From NCBI GenBank assembly GCA_024680925.1, contig JAILBM010000062.1, positions 1 to 43,049 of the forward strand: DNA of 43,049 bases. Direction: 5' to 3'. The translations under genes were made by a program, and so were the position numbers. The DNA comes from Butyrivibrio sp. Its GTDB lineage: Bacteria; Bacillota; Clostridia; Lachnospirales; Lachnospiraceae. Below are positions 34,702 through 42,916 of the stretch, in pieces (position 1 is the stretch's first letter; each line of letters opens with the position of its first letter). The notes under the pieces are model-generated. The model saw nothing but the letters and a program-made list of their open reading frames with translations. It was not told the DNA's origin and ran no database searches.

Positions 34702-36213
34702 ATGAATCGTTTTGCGAGGGGTGTTCGTTTTACATTAGTTTTATCAATTATTACTCTGGCGGCAGTTTATCTGCTGCTGGGGTATTACTATTCTGATGGA
34801 TTTTCATATGGAACGTGGATAAATGGAATTTATTGCACGGGAAAAAGCGTTGAAGAGGTAAATGAACTGTTAAAGGAAAATGTTCAATATCAGACTCTTT
34901 CCATAACCGATAAGGATGGCGCTTTACTGGAAATTTATCCGGAGGATATTGATTTGGAGTATGATTATACGGAATCTTTAAAAACCCGTATAAATAATCA
35001 AAATCCTCTCTTTTGGGGACTAAATCTTTTTGCTGCATATCGCAGCAACATTATTCCGACTATAAATTTTGATATAGATAAGCTGTATCGTATTCTGGCT
35101 GATTGGGAAATATTTAATTCAGAGCAGGATTTATCTGTATATATTGATTTTGATAAGAACGGCTTTTTCCTTGTTAATGAAAAGGAAAGTGTGCCGGATT
35201 TCGAAGCTGTCCTTGGTAAAGTAAACGATGCTGTATACAGCGAGGAAGCAGTGCTAGATTTATCTCAAAGCGATAACTGCTATAAATCGATTGAGCTAAC
35301 CGATGATGAAATAAAGATCAAAGACTTTTTTGATAAATTAAATGAACTTCAAAGTCCGGATATTTCCATAAATATCATGAATGAGGATGTTACTGTTACA
35401 AGCTCGGTAGCCTGGGAATTTTTGGTGACAAGAGATAATTATGATGATTATCGGCAGGAAGTCAGTACAAAAAAACAGCCATGGCTTGGATACTTTATCT
35501 GTAATGGGGCTGAATGTGCACTTCCTTCTGAGGAAGAGGTTATTTATGAAAATGACTTTGTGACGGATGATGATGGTAATCTTTATCTTAGCTGTTCAGC
35601 TATATATGACTTTGCAAGTGACCTTTGTGATAAATATGATACAAGCTATATGATTGATGATTATCTAGAAAAAGGAAGTGGTGAAATTCTCATTTCCAAT
35701 AATTCCAAAGGAAACAAAGGTATTTATAATACAGAGGAAATATATAACTATATTAAAGGTTATTATCTTGGAGAAAATACTGAAAAGTCCTATAGTGCTT
35801 TGCTGAAAGATGATGTTGAAAGCCATGACGGGGGTTTACTTGGTATGACATTTATAAAGGTTGATATGGGAGAGCAGGAGTTAACCTATTATGTCAATGG
35901 AAAAGAATCCATGAGATTTCCTATAGTTACAGGCAATGTAAACAGATCCAGAGGAACACCTTCAGGAATATACAACATATATAATAAACGCCATGATACG
36001 GTTTTGAGAGGCGAAAATTATGCTTCCTTTGTTCATTTTTTGCTTGGAGTATATAAAGGAGTAGGTATTCATGATGCCAGTTGGAGAGATGAATTTGGAG
36101 GAGAAATATACAAAAGTGACGGATCTCATGGTTGTATAAATTGCCCATCAGAAGAAGTTGAAATCCTTTGGAATCAAGCAGAAGTGGGAACTCCGGCAAT
36201 TCTTTTTTATTAA
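34702..36213 (+). CDS. L,D-transpeptidase (YkuD) with PG-binding-4-like domain
   Basis: A membrane-anchored cell-wall crosslinking enzyme of 503 residues that forms 3-3 peptide bonds. There is one N-terminal helix (about 10-29), a periplasm-facing region (about 35-260) resembling the peptidoglycan-binding type 4 domain, a mid region, and the YkuD domain from about 385. Catalytic residues are His457 (GIHDASW) and Cys478 in GSHGCIN. The ATG is the first base after the ilvB stop, with only a weak GAG-type ribosome site in ilvB, so it appears coupled to ilvB. I see no hairpin terminator after it. Confidence 0.92.
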   Translation: MNRFARGVRFTLVLSIITLAAVYLLLGYYYSDGFSYGTWINGIYCTGKSVEEVNELLKENVQYQTLSITDKDGALLEIYPEDIDLEYDYTESLKTRINNQNPLFWGLNLFAAYRSNIIPTINFDIDKLYRILADWEIFNSEQDLSVYIDFDKNGFFLVNEKESVPDFEAVLGKVNDAVYSEEAVLDLSQSDNCYKSIELTDDEIKIKDFFDKLNELQSPDISINIMNEDVTVTSSVAWEFLVTRDNYDDYRQEVSTKKQPWLGYFICNGAECALPSEEEVIYENDFVTDDDGNLYLSCSAIYDFASDLCDKYDTSYMIDDYLEKGSGEILISNNSKGNKGIYNTEEIYNYIKGYYLGENTEKSYSALLKDDVESHDGGLLGMTFIKVDMGEQELTYYVNGKESMRFPIVTGNVNRSRGTPSGIYNIYNKRHDTVLRGENYASFVHFLLGVYKGVGIHDASWRDEFGGEIYKSDGSHGCINCPSEEVEILWNQAEVGTPAILFY

Positions 36214-38837: not shown

Positions 38838-40070
38838 ATGGTAAAAATTAGACCTTTTAAAGCATATAGACCGACAAGTGAGCTGGTTTCCAAGGTGGCT
38901 GCACTTCCTTATGACGTTTATACAAGCAGCGAAGCAAGAGAAGTTGTAGGTCAAAATGAGCTCTCTTTTTTGGCAATAGACAGAGCAGAAACCCAGTTTC
39001 CTGAAGATGTGGATATGTATTCACAACAAGTATATGAGAAGGCAAGAGATCTTCTTAATGACAGGATTGAAAAAGGCATATTCATACAGGATGATAAGCC
39101 CTGCTATTATATTTATGAGCAGACCATGGATGGAAGAACCCAGACAGGAATCGTAGCATGTTCTTCTGTTCAGGATTATGTGGATGGTATTATAAAAAAG
39201 CATGAAAATACCAGGGAAGATAAGGAAATCGACAGAATTAAGCATGTGGATACCTGTAATGCCCAGACAGGTCCTATTTTTTTGTGCTATAGACAAAATG
39301 AAACACTGGATGAACTGGTTTTAAATATTAAAAAGGATAAACCTCTTTATAGCTTTGAGTCTGAAAATGTAAAAAACAATGTATGGATAATTGATAAGGA
39401 TTCGGATATAGAAGCACTTACCAAAGCTTTTGAAACCATGGACAATACTTACATTGCCGATGGACATCACAGATGCGCTTCTGCAGTAAAGGTGGGTCTT
39501 AAGAGAAGAAACGAAGATGCTAATGCTGACGGAAATAAAGAGTATGATTATTTTTTATCTGTTTTATTTCCGGATAATCAGCTGATGATCATGGATTATA
39601 ACAGAGTGGTTAAGGATTTAAATGGTCTTAGTTCAGAGGAGTTTTTGGCTAAAATCAGCGAGAAATTCAAGGTTACAGAATCTAAAGCGGAAGTAAAACC
39701 AAATAAAAAAGGAACATTTGGTATGTTTCTTGATGAAAAATGGTACATTCTTGAGGCTACAAGTGCTATTATGGATATAGATGTTGTTGAGAGTCTGGAT
39801 GTATCTGTACTTCAAAATGAAATCTTACATCCGATACTTGGTATAGGGGACCCAAGAACTGATAAACGTATAGATTTTATCGGCGGCATCAGGGGACTTA
39901 AGGAACTGGAAAAGAGATGTCATAAGGACATGAAAGTGGCTTTTTCCATGTATCCTACAAGTATTCATGAACTTTTTGCGGTAGCAGATGCAGGAAAGCT
40001 TATGCCACCCAAATCTACATGGTTTGAGCCTAAGCTTTTAAGCGGAATGTTTATTCATTCTCTTTCCTAA
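38838..40070 (+). CDS. DUF1015 family protein linked to serine biosynthesis
   Basis: This 410-residue family is commonly found beside serC and serA and has no settled function. Visible signatures are IRPFKAYRP at the start, ALPYDVY, KKHENTREDKEIDRIKH (120-136), ADGHHRCASA (207-216) and HPILGIGDPRTDKRIDF near the end. The DGHHR motif recalls the ParB-fold free-serine kinases SerK and SbnI; I take this as a possible clue to a phospho-transfer role, not as proof. Ribosome sites are GGAGG (38821-38825) or the closer AAAGG. It lies after the serA terminator, so it may have partly separate expression. Confidence 0.85.
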   Translation: MVKIRPFKAYRPTSELVSKVAALPYDVYTSSEAREVVGQNELSFLAIDRAETQFPEDVDMYSQQVYEKARDLLNDRIEKGIFIQDDKPCYYIYEQTMDGRTQTGIVACSSVQDYVDGIIKKHENTREDKEIDRIKHVDTCNAQTGPIFLCYRQNETLDELVLNIKKDKPLYSFESENVKNNVWIIDKDSDIEALTKAFETMDNTYIADGHHRCASAVKVGLKRRNEDANADGNKEYDYFLSVLFPDNQLMIMDYNRVVKDLNGLSSEEFLAKISEKFKVTESKAEVKPNKKGTFGMFLDEKWYILEATSAIMDIDVVESLDVSVLQNEILHPILGIGDPRTDKRIDFIGGIRGLKELEKRCHKDMKVAFSMYPTSIHELFAVADAGKLMPPKSTWFEPKLLSGMFIHSLS

Positions 40071-40126
40071 GGATTCTCTGACTTTTCAATGATACATAAA
40101 AATACATTATAAAAGGGGAGTAACTG

Positions 40127-42613
40127 GTGAATACAAAATTATACAAGCTAATGAACTGGCCGGAAATCGAAGAAATTATTTATTCTGACGGAAGTGATCC
40201 GCATAGGATCCTTGGAGCACATAAGATAGGTAATAATCTTCTGGTACAGATGTTTTATCCCGGTGCTAAGGAAGTAAATCTGTGCATTGATGGCGATGAT
40301 GAAGATACCTTTAAAATGGAACAGGCTGATGAGGCAGGCTTTTTTGCTTCTCTTATCCCATATATTGAAGGCACTGAATATCATTACGAGATTTTGACAG
40401 ATGATGATAAACAGATAAATCTGCATGATGCTTATAATTTTGGACCATTTCTTGAAAGAGAGGATTTCATTAAATTTAATAGTGGAATTCATATGGATAT
40501 TTACGAAAAGCTTGGCTCAAGACCAATGGAGAGAAATGGTTATGTGGGCGTAAACTTTTCTGTTTGGGCTCCGGGAGCTATCAGAGTCAGTGTCGTAGGT
40601 GATTTTAACGGATGGGATGGACGTATCCATCAGATGAGAAAACTGGATCCAAACGGAGTATTTGAGATTTTTATTCCTGATGTTTCTGAAGGTGATAAGT
40701 ATCAGTTTGAGATTAAGACAAAGGCAGGAATAACTTTAAGAAGAAACGATCCATATGCTCTTAGTGTAGAAAATACCGAGAACGGATATTTTTCTGTTGT
40801 AAAGGCACTTCATAATTATGAATGGGAAGATAGCACATTTTTGCAGAATCAGAAAAAGATCAATAAGGATTCAGATCCTCTTTCCATTTGTGAGATTTCA
40901 ATTGATAAGTTTATAAACAGACACAGAAGTGATAAGACTTTAAAGGAACTTACTCCTGAAATTCTGGATTATGTAGATAAACATGGTTTTGACGTAATAT
41001 CTTTATCACCGGTAATGGAACATGCTGCCGATCATAATTATCATATTCTTAATTATTATGCGGTACATGAAAAATATGGTGATGCCGATGAGCTTAAGTT
41101 TTTTGTAAACGAAGCTCATAAGAGAGAGATCGCTGTTATTTTTGAATGGGTTCCTACATTCTTTGATGGTGATGAGGGCGGACTTTCTGACTTTACTGGA
41201 AAGCCTCTTTATGAATATCCTGATCCAAGAAAGGGATATAGAAAAAATTCACCGGATAAGGTATTTGACTTTGGAAGAAAGGAAGTATGTAATTTCCTTA
41301 CTACCAATGCACTTTACTGGTTAAAGGAATTTCATGCTGATGGTTTTAGACTTTCGGATATTTCAAAGGTTCTTTACCTTGACTATGACAGAGCTGCAGG
41401 AGAATGGGAGCCTAATATTTACGGTGGCAATGAAAATCTTGAAGCGGCTGCATTTATGCGCAATTTCACAGAGGCTGTTCACAAATACAGCAAAGGCGCC
41501 CTTCTTATAACCAAGGAAACAGCCTGCTATCCAAAGGTTACTTTAAGCCTTGAGGAAGGCGGACTTGGATTTGACTATAAATGGAACAATGGCTGGACGA
41601 AGGATATCCTTACTTATGTTCAGAATGATCCGATATTCAGAGGTGGACGTCACAATGAACTTACTAACAGCATTTTGTATTGTTATTCAGAGCGCTTTAT
41701 TTTATCAATAAATCACGAGGATCTTTATAAAGGCCTTGAAAGTCTTTATGATATGATGCCCGGCGATTCAACTCAGAAGCTTTGTAATACCAGATTTGTA
41801 CTTAGCTACCTTTATACTTATCCAGGCAAAAAAATGCTTGCCATGGACCCGGATGCTTTGAATATGGATCAGTCCATTGCTCTTCAGAATATGTTAAGCG
41901 ATCTGAATACTATTTATTACAGTAAGGATGCTCTTTCTGTTTATGACACCACTGATGCGGGTTTTGAGTGGATCAATAATATGGATGCCCAAAACTGCCG
42001 TATGAGTTTTGTAAGACATGGTAAGAAAAAAGATGATTTCCTTCTTGTAGTTTGCAATATGTCAGGCGTTATGCAGGAATTTAATGTAGGTGTCCCGGAA
42101 GATGGAAAATATTCTGAAATATTTTCCTCTGATAAGTTGGAATATGGTGGGAGCGGCATTTCCAACGGGGAATTGCAGCTGGCAGAAAGAAAAGCTTATG
42201 ATGGAAGAGCCTATTGCATAAAGGTTAAGCTTGCTCCCTGCTCTGTTTCAATTCTTTCATTCACTCCTTATACAGAAGAGGAGAAGAAAATAAGAAAGAT
42301 CAAAGAAGAAGAGGAAATCCGTAAGGAAAAGGAAATCGAAAAGAGCCTTGCGGAACTTAAAGCAAAGCAGGATAAGGAAGAAGAAAAGATTCTTAAAGAG
42401 CTTCGCGAAAGATATGAAAAAGAGCTTGCTCAGCAGAGAATAGCTATTGAAGAGAAGTATGAAAAGATTCAGGAAGAGAAGATAAATGCGGTGGTAAGTT
42501 CTGCTACCGGTATTGAAAAATCTGCTTCCAAGGCAGCTTCAAAAAAGACATCCTCAAAGAAGTCTACAACCAAGGCTGCTGCGAAAAAGACTTCAAAAAA
42601 TAAGAAAAAATAA
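40127..42613 (+). CDS. Glycogen branching enzyme-like pseudoenzyme with coiled coil and basic tail
   Basis: The 828-residue protein follows GlgB from end to end: an N1 domain (PHRILGAH, about 25-110), a CBM48 (FSVWAPGAIRVSVVGDFNGWDG, 144-165), a GH13 barrel (about 250-600) and a C-terminal beta domain. The four catalytic regions can be aligned without gaps, and all are altered: region I EWVPTFF (340-346) for DWVPGHF, region II GFRLS (Ser410 where the nucleophile Asp belongs), region III TKET (Lys463 in place of the acid Glu), region IV NHED (Glu531 in place of Asp). Residues about 716-785 form a Glu/Lys coiled coil and about 797-828 a Lys/Ala/Ser/Thr tail like histone H1. It starts at a GTG with GGGGAG 6 bases upstream. 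I infer a non-catalytic glucan-binding or scaffold protein. Confidence 0.85.
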   Translation: MNTKLYKLMNWPEIEEIIYSDGSDPHRILGAHKIGNNLLVQMFYPGAKEVNLCIDGDDEDTFKMEQADEAGFFASLIPYIEGTEYHYEILTDDDKQINLHDAYNFGPFLEREDFIKFNSGIHMDIYEKLGSRPMERNGYVGVNFSVWAPGAIRVSVVGDFNGWDGRIHQMRKLDPNGVFEIFIPDVSEGDKYQFEIKTKAGITLRRNDPYALSVENTENGYFSVVKALHNYEWEDSTFLQNQKKINKDSDPLSICEISIDKFINRHRSDKTLKELTPEILDYVDKHGFDVISLSPVMEHAADHNYHILNYYAVHEKYGDADELKFFVNEAHKREIAVIFEWVPTFFDGDEGGLSDFTGKPLYEYPDPRKGYRKNSPDKVFDFGRKEVCNFLTTNALYWLKEFHADGFRLSDISKVLYLDYDRAAGEWEPNIYGGNENLEAAAFMRNFTEAVHKYSKGALLITKETACYPKVTLSLEEGGLGFDYKWNNGWTKDILTYVQNDPIFRGGRHNELTNSILYCYSERFILSINHEDLYKGLESLYDMMPGDSTQKLCNTRFVLSYLYTYPGKKMLAMDPDALNMDQSIALQNMLSDLNTIYYSKDALSVYDTTDAGFEWINNMDAQNCRMSFVRHGKKKDDFLLVVCNMSGVMQEFNVGVPEDGKYSEIFSSDKLEYGGSGISNGELQLAERKAYDGRAYCIKVKLAPCSVSILSFTPYTEEEKKIRKIKEEEEIRKEKEIEKSLAELKAKQDKEEEKILKELRERYEKELAQQRIAIEEKYEKIQEEKINAVVSSATGIEKSASKAASKKTSSKKSTTKAAAKKTSKNKKK

Positions 42614-42804: not shown

Positions 42805-42877
42805 GCTGGAATGGCGCAGTTGGTAGCGCAACTGATTCGTAATCAGTAGGACGTCGGTTCAAGTCCGATTTCCAGCT
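42805..42877 (+). tRNA. tRNA-Thr (anticodon CGU)
   Basis: A full cloverleaf can be drawn: acceptor GCTGGAA with TTCCAGC, D stem GCGC with GCGC, anticodon stem ACTGA with TCAGT around the loop TTCGTAA (anticodon CGT at 42838-42840), a 5-base variable loop and a T arm with loop TTCAAGT. The discriminator is T at 42877 and CCA is not encoded. It reads the ACG threonine codon. It is a single-gene unit with its own promoter and terminator. Confidence 0.96.
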
Positions 42878-42885
42878 TTTTATCG

Positions 42886-42916
42886 CACAAGGTTATTTTT
42901 TAACCTTGTGTTTTTT
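42886..42916 (+). terminator. Rho-independent terminator of tRNA-Thr
   Basis: CACAAGGTTA (42886-42895) pairs with TAACCTTGTG (42901-42910), followed by six T. The T tract runs directly into the right terminal repeat. Confidence 0.93.

Follow-up and report, generated by a model that had tools for sequence, protein, structure and literature searches.

A long-form GlgB homologue of Butyrivibrio with a replaced catalytic triad, conserved across the genus group and maintained by selection

What retains a full-length glycogen branching enzyme (GlgB) homologue in a bacterial lineage once its catalytic triad has been replaced? The question is raised by a gene at positions 40127 to 42613, on the plus strand, of a 43,049-nucleotide stretch of Butyrivibrio sp. 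DNA (positions 1 to 43,049 of contig JAILBM010000062.1, assembly GCA_024680925.1), and we refer to this whole stretch as the window. Judged from sequence comparisons, this long GlgB copy goes back to a long-form glycogen branching enzyme, has lost catalysis, and has been kept by selection. An earlier note on this DNA had proposed a selected pseudoenzyme, an interpretation that is supported here by a triad altered throughout the genus group together with purifying selection on the gene. As to what the protein does, we lean with moderate confidence toward a selected non-catalytic subunit that binds glucan and a partner protein and is comparable to plant ISA2.

In alignments made with MAFFT and HMMER against Escherichia coli GlgB (sequence from NC_000913), the positions of D335, H340, R403, D405, E458, H525, and D526 are occupied in the window protein by E, F, R, S, K, H, and E. 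None of the GH13 triad residues D405, E458, and D526 is in place, their positions holding S410, K463, and E531, of which only the change of D526 to Glu is conservative. The five substituted residues, E340, F345, S410, K463, and E531, are the same as those first read from the sequence. The gene and the parts of its product are as follows, with the evidence in brackets.

40127 to 42613, plus strand: long-form GlgB homologue of 828 amino acids with a GTG start, almost certainly non-catalytic (open reading frame, Pfam, alignments)
40114 to 40120, plus strand: Shine-Dalgarno sequence AGGGGAG (sequence)
40139 to 40225, plus strand: N-terminal motif, residues 5 to 33 (orthologue comparison, structure model)
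40157 to 40435, plus strand: N1 domain (GlgB_N), residues 11 to 103 (Pfam)
40508 to 40759, plus strand: CBM48, residues 128 to 211 (Pfam)
40613 to 40615, plus strand: Trp163, equivalent to E. coli W159 of surface glucan site IV (alignment; site as given in Table 1 of PMC10254366)
40832 to 41926, plus strand: GH13 barrel, residues 236 to 600, with approximate boundaries set by us (Pfam, alignments, model)
41144 to 41164, plus strand: region I, with Glu340 (D335) and Phe345 (H340) (alignment)
41348 to 41368, plus strand: region II, with Arg408 kept, D405 changed to Ser410, A406 to Asp411, and S409 to Lys414 (alignment)
41510 to 41527, plus strand: region III, Thr462 Lys463 Glu464 Thr465 Ala466 Cys467, with E458 changed to Lys463 (alignment)
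41711 to 41722, plus strand: region IV, Asn529 His530 Glu531 Asp532, with D526 changed to Glu531 (alignment)
41840 to 41860, plus strand: approximate site of a loop deletion of 14 to 16 residues, residues 572 to 578 (alignments)
41969 to 42259, plus strand: C-terminal beta domain (Alpha-amylase_C), residues 615 to 711, with Trp615, equivalent to E. coli W628 of site VI (Pfam, alignment)
42275 to 42499, plus strand: predicted long helix of about 75 residues, residues 717 to 791 (structure model)
42500 to 42610, plus strand: Lys/Ser/Ala-rich tail, residues 792 to 828, variable and without predicted structure (structure model, comparison)

The reading frame has no internal stop over its 828 codons, and the domain order of N1, CBM48, GH13 barrel, and C-terminal beta domain is that of GlgB, both by Pfam and by the structure model and its fold match, so that the full-length GlgB architecture described in the earlier note is indeed intact. 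The Pfam Alpha-amylase match (60.8 bits) lies above its cut-off and covers that model only in part. Among the curated models, the score exceeds the cut-off for TIGR01515 (551.1 against 463.95 bits) and stays below it for NF003811 (607.6 against 741) and NF008967 (570.8 against 577). The top solved relative by sequence is the Mycobacterium tuberculosis GlgB (PDB 3k1d, 461 bits). In the structure matches, other GH13 proteins such as pullulanases and GlgX rank below the GlgB rows, and sequence likewise favours GlgB. An identity as an isoamylase or debranching enzyme, that is, as ISA2 proper, was rejected since the nearest models and structures by sequence are those of GlgB.

Could the substitutions be produced by a misplaced alignment? 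The earlier note thought this unlikely, and we agree: a shift of register bringing Asp411 to the place of the nucleophile is ruled out by the HMMER and MAFFT alignments, both without gaps there, and by the start of strand 4 at the equivalent Gly in two structure models (406 here and 408 in L210, a canonical long copy), the latter support being moderate with a mean predicted local distance difference test (pLDDT) score of 66.6 for the L210 model. The absence of gaps relative to GlgB holds around the triad but does not extend to the whole protein; 2 residues are missing shortly before Y305, and about 14 to 16 are missing after region IV, where the lost loop is the one holding W586 in E. coli.

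The altered triad is not a peculiarity of one genome. An orthologue was present in 58 of 61 genus-group genomes, with 48 to 83% identity to the window protein (itself excluded), and the three genomes without one (G152, G156, and G172) are only 60 to 72% complete. At the nucleophile position these 58 proteins have S (36), A (10), P (8), or T (4), none of which is able to act as the nucleophile in the retaining GH13 mechanism, at the acid/base position K (52) or R (6), and at the position of D526 E (53) or D (5). Since the triad is altered in every one of the 58, more than chance must be involved, and with so few types of replacement the substitutions are conserved rather than random. A scan of named contigs, whose genomes overlap those of the genus group, gave the same picture among the best 80 of 381 places: 58 loci carried the same kind of altered signature (50 labelled Butyrivibrio and 8 Lachnospiraceae bacterium), while 22 were canonical, at 42 to 46% identity and with no Butyrivibrio label. 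The closest relative among these 80 was Butyrivibrio sp. SIG348 (84%), and the carriers include the named isolates Butyrivibrio hungatei DSM 14810 (orthologue L166) and B. proteoclasticus P18.

The claim that all catalytic residues had been lost stands for the nucleophile, the acid/base, and the third Asp but not for the remainder of the site, which is largely kept in the genus: the equivalent of R403 (R408) in 58/58, D335 in 56/58, H530 in 54/58, and Y305 (E. coli Y300) as Tyr in 48/58. Of the region I changes, E340 and F345 are both found in the window protein, but the replacement of Asp by Glu occurs in only 2 of the 58, the window protein and its sister. The retained Arg, His, and region I Asp, together with the conservative change of D526 to Glu, might be taken to mean that weak branching activity persists with altered residues; with nucleophile and acid/base both absent in 58/58, we regard this as scarcely credible, and the protein is almost certainly non-catalytic as judged from its residues.

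Outside the genus, the loss has recurred. The family search took in a single genome from each of 150 genera, our own included, which leaves 149 others, and in 86 of these the long copies were retrieved and read. Of these, 66 were canonical (69 sequences) and 20 altered, with an altered triad in 19 and the nucleophile lost in 17; L127 has D405, E458, and D526 intact and differs at H525 only. A second look at 23 genomes added six altered genera (G043, G072, G120, G114, G045, and G048, where G045 has no N1 in frame and G048 is partial), and G130, likewise examined, was canonical. The triad is thus altered in at least 25 of the 149 other sampled genera, the altered-genus counts being lower bounds in view of unfetched long-type matches (for example G011:C74, G054:C38, G074:C59, G029:C11, and G129:C37). 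L092 represents the gene already covered by L070 and was left out, as were two other GH13 proteins (L003 and L004) and all of L034 but its glgB. Three canonical sequences out of the 69 (L142, L144, and L146) cluster with short copies in a 119-row tree, where L143 stands apart.

By parsimony, the altered state requires at least six changes both on this tree and on a 44-row tree made without the catalytic columns. The count itself has no direction, and we take the changes to be losses, since it is implausible that a triad would be regained. A single loss for all altered copies was rejected in constraint tests on the 44-row tree, where forcing the 19 altered rows together cost 319.7 log-likelihood units (approximately unbiased test, p 8.8e-78); forcing Butyrivibrio together with the genus g70, a pair picked after seeing the tree, cost 115.0 units (p 1.6e-6). 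In the 119-row tree, long branches of altered copies may attract each other, which makes it uncertain that L013 and L018 belong with Butyrivibrio. Within g70, D526 is lost in 18/18 long copies (L292 to L309) while D405 remains in 9 and is replaced by Glu in 7 and by Ala in 2. All 18 share with Butyrivibrio the combination of A406D and K/R409, even though the two genera do not form one clade. In the genus g88, the nucleophile is lost in four of five long copies (L015 and L283 to L285), and L286 keeps the triad, with H340 changed to Asp. From the gradation in g70 and the loss inside g88, we conclude that loss is recurrent and visible in stages.

The residues that replaced the old ones are themselves uniform. 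Asp411, which is Ala in canonical copies, and Cys467 are newly fixed in 58/58 orthologues each, position 414 (Ser in canonical copies) is Lys or Arg in 58/58, and Glu464 is present in 58/58. Together with an acid/base position that is always K or R, this is more uniformity than a mere vacancy needs, and an Asp at position 406 (E. coli numbering) is seen in 18/18 g70 long copies and in 9/20 other altered copies. A rebuilt active site, in which Asp411, Lys/Arg463, Glu464, and Cys467 would form a new catalytic or covalent site of another kind of enzyme, could account for such a pattern. We find it very improbable, as D411 replaces the Ala that adjoins the nucleophile position with no shift seen in the register of strand 4, the position of E464 is acidic in canonical copies as well (E in 67 and D in 2 of 69) and hence not new, and the active-site loop and the donor-path residues are lost. 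The same residues may also be viewed as a basic takeover of the Butyrivibrio pocket, with Arg408 kept, the acid/base and S409 each replaced by Lys or Arg in 58/58, and the new Asp411 in 58/58. That the former active site became a regulatory pocket, which would respond to an anionic metabolite (a sugar phosphate or ADP-glucose, for instance) and signal to glycogen synthesis, is an unlikely reading of this pattern; if it were true, the Lachnospiraceae would repeatedly have made one branching-enzyme paralogue a sensor-scaffold.

Branching itself need not depend on the long copy. The earlier note had suggested looking for a second, canonical glgB, and our own genome (449 contigs, 88.5% complete, 7.3% contaminated) has one, of about 660 residues and without N1. 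This short paralogue is canonical in 21/21 copies read (our own genome and 20 others), and long and short copies occur together in 34/34 genomes with at least 90% completeness and at most 5% contamination. A second, canonical GlgB was also found in 20/20 of the altered genera first read, that of G010 being a partial frame. A non-catalytic paralogue selected across a lineage is therefore accompanied by a catalytic paralogue in the same genomes, which is the arrangement described for ISA2. Our own genome further has a glgA and two glgC-like genes above the family cut-off. Each of the latter (G000:C222:22160-24468 and G000:C407:5937-8121) is followed by a lower-scoring, probably glgD-like gene, which suggests two ADP-glucose pyrophosphorylase pairs.

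It is virtually certain that the long gene is under selection for a function. The ratio of nonsynonymous to synonymous substitution rates (dN/dS) was 0.060 against a relative at 84%, in agreement with purifying selection, and for the same pair it was 0.059 for the neighbouring serA, 0.044 for serC, 0.133 for the DUF1015 gene, and 0.228 for the L,D-transpeptidase-like (LDT) gene; the short GlgB gave 0.034 against genome G157, and all of these values are rough with dS near saturation. A decaying pseudogene, or an artefact of assembly or alignment, might be suggested by the lost catalytic residues and by the limited completeness and the contamination of our own assembly. Neither relaxed selection nor broken frames were found, and this explanation is taken as refuted by the 58 open orthologues, the dN/dS of 0.06, and synonymous change within near-invariant segments, as well as by the named isolates among the carriers and a consistent structure model; the view that the gene is not decaying is confirmed. 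The expectation of normal promoter-proximal signals was borne out in part: the frame is clean and a Shine-Dalgarno-like sequence (loose pattern) lies 5' of the start in 58/58 genus orthologues, but a separate promoter is not supported, with 56 bases between the upstream gene and the start and 14 promoter-like sites compared to 15.1 in shuffles.

Constraint is unevenly distributed along the protein. Residues 5 to 33 are invariant at 24/29 positions in 58/58 orthologues while their synonymous codons vary, and the constraint must therefore act on the protein. Among altered copies of 21 genomes, mean pairwise identity was highest in residues 1 to 36 (0.89); it fell to 0.50 in the remainder of N1 and was 0.62 in CBM48, 0.58 in the barrel, 0.59 in the C-domain, and 0.64 in the long helix. 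The canonical short copy reached 0.85 in its barrel in the same number of genomes, and it follows that the altered barrel evolves faster than the active one. The lowest segment dN/dS, 0.029, was that of the long helix (residues 715 to 790), the tail excepted since its dS could not be estimated. Mean majority-residue frequency in Butyrivibrio was 0.93 for residues 1 to 36 and 0.74 for the barrel; in the canonical long copies, a more diverse set from many genera, the order is reversed (0.59 and 0.77). Model confidence is low for residues 1 to 20, with a pLDDT of about 60 for the N-terminal helix, which may reflect a segment that folds on a partner, other reasons being possible.

The position of the gene in the chromosome points to its origin. 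The neighbours that define the locus are the following.

38838 to 40070, plus strand: upstream neighbour, putatively of DUF1015 type, in the shared order LDT-serC-serA-DUF1015-[long GlgB]
42805 to 42877, plus strand: tRNA-Thr (CGT), the usual downstream neighbour (tRNA call, locus comparison)

The labels LDT, serC, serA, and DUF1015 are what we take these genes to be from their translations. The DUF1015 gene lies upstream at 49/58 altered and 22/22 canonical loci, and tRNA-Thr(CGT) lies near 49/58 altered and 16/22 canonical loci, short contigs included. Given this common gene order, the altered gene and a canonical, presumably active GlgB are positional orthologues. In agreement with this, the tree made without catalytic columns places Butyrivibrio inside a 16-row clade with canonical copies of the same gene-order type (Shimodaira-Hasegawa-like approximate likelihood ratio test 99), a placement that is less well resolved in the larger 119-row tree. 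Seven Butyrivibrio loci (L158, L163, L167, L170, L186, L194, and L206) are without the serC-serA-DUF1015 neighbours and still have tRNA-Thr(CGT) about 1 to 2 kb downstream; six of the seven have an Ala at the nucleophile position. In the window, the tRNA is followed by a terminator-like hairpin and T run at 42885 to 42911, and the putative L,D-transpeptidase-like gene of the conserved block, at 34702 to 36213, gave a larger dN/dS than any other gene in the comparison.

If the protein no longer cuts glucan, it may still hold it. Twelve surface glucan sites are described for E. coli GlgB (PMC10254366). In the altered Butyrivibrio copies, the equivalent of W628 (Trp615, site VI) is W in 58/58, that of W159 (Trp163, site IV) is W in 55/58, and that of Y499 is F or Y in 52/58. 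Other residues are gone: the equivalents of W586 and F294 are gapped in 58/58, compared to W and L/F/Y, respectively, in 69/69 canonical long copies, and the equivalent of W262, F or Y in 69/69 canonical long copies, is lost. This pattern fits a glucan that would still be held on the CBM48 and C-domain side while the donor chain is no longer guided. Kept surface sites would also suit a competitor or brake, a glycogen-bound protein that masks chains from branching or degradation and needs no partner, and for plant ISA complexes such masking has been put forward among other non-catalytic modes (PMC12510319). It leaves a near-invariant N-terminus that looks protein-binding without an explanation, and we hold it to be quite unlikely.

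A function outside glycogen metabolism is possible, if doubtful. The GlgB body would then serve only as a platform, and the actual task, such as binding nucleic acid, a membrane, or a cell-structure protein, would fall to the N-terminal helix, the long helix, and the Lys-rich tail. Conservation is highest not in the barrel but in residues 1 to 36 and, with less clarity, in the long helix, the tail is basic, and the neighbours are not glycogen genes, all of which would agree with such moonlighting. However, the N-terminal motif and the long helix occur on canonical long copies too, and a basic tail is likewise present in the four canonical copies whose tails were read; because canonical long copies have them, these three parts are not tied to the loss of catalysis. 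The Trp retained at two surface glucan sites also speaks against it.

In the subunit role that we favour, the short GlgB would have taken over branching and the long copy would thereby have been freed to keep an architectural job only. It would bind alpha-glucan through surface sites on the CBM48 side and the C-domain without cutting it, and the near-invariant N-terminal helix, with its low model confidence in the monomer, might be a docking segment for a partner. The 75-residue helix and the basic tail could tether the short GlgB, GlgA, or the long copy itself to the growing glycogen, and branching or chain length would be set through the partner held there.

Several observations weigh against this role. 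Only sites IV, VI, and VIII are kept, which is thin support for binding as the two Trp could serve structure; sites I, VII, and XII are lost in the altered Butyrivibrio copies, and sites II, III, V, IX, X, and XI are uninformative since the residue type of E. coli is missing there even in canonical long copies. The tail proposed to help hold a partner is the least conserved part of the protein, and the dN/dS values are rough, as noted above. The gene adjoins serine-synthesis-type genes and not glycogen genes, and for this reason its context gives no pathway link. That no altered long copy stood alone in the first-read set is in favour of the role, a lone GlgB match having been seen in 11/66 genera with a canonical long copy and 0/20 with an altered one; the Fisher p is 0.044 one-sided but 0.061, thus above 0.05, two-sided, and the match counts come from a family search in which no more than six candidates were scored in each genome. 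Finally, the altered genus G048 (D405N, split over contigs) has no other GlgB among the matches listed.

The gene has probably been seen before under another name. In the available part of PMC5716241, glgB2 of B. hungatei MB2003 (bhn_I1458) encodes 824 amino acids with GH13 and CBM48, beside a 663-amino-acid glgB1, and is listed as a 1,4-alpha-glucan branching enzyme without a remark on missing catalytic residues; judged by its length, it is probably this orthologue. Our results suggest that this published Butyrivibrio gene is not a branching enzyme, and such misannotation would carry over into glycogen models and into glgB counts made from gut and rumen data. Several glgB copies occur in some gut bacteria, for example Blautia obeum and Dorea longicatena, and loss of catalysis among multiple copies goes unmentioned in the part of PMC10395257 that was available. 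In the open-licence literature, we found no description of a bacterial branching-enzyme pseudoenzyme (titles and abstract starts), no Butyrivibrio proteome data on glycogen branching, and no paper on FdBE2 in the Faecalibacterium branching-enzyme literature. A loss that is genus-wide in a rumen genus and recurrent elsewhere offers a natural replicate experiment on the non-catalytic jobs of a glycogen enzyme.

Compared with long-form GlgB proteins such as that of M. tuberculosis (PDB 3k1d), the window protein has a replaced triad, a deleted active-site loop, a long helix, and a basic tail, the last two of which are also found in the canonical Lachnospiraceae copies examined. The closest parallel in kind is plant ISA2, a non-catalytic GH13 paralogue that affects polymer form through complexes (PMC12510319). 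As in our case, its catalytic residues were lost in a common ancestor, the gene was kept in the descendants, and it changes faster than the catalytic paralogue, which is also present. In contrast to our case, ISA2 is of the isoamylase type (GH13_11) with a known partner, ISA1, and a polymer phenotype, whereas the Butyrivibrio protein derives from a branching enzyme, is found in a bacterium, and has a partner by proposal only. A second parallel is GlgD, an activity-lacking, modulating subunit of ADP-glucose pyrophosphorylase in Firmicutes (PMC9093745), which is likewise a catalytically silent protein retained in the same pathway of related bacteria, although it belongs to another protein family, acts at another step, and has a described complex with GlgC. 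By analogy, the role proposed for the long GlgB copy of Butyrivibrio resembles in its logic that of ISA2 with ISA1 or of GlgD with GlgC.

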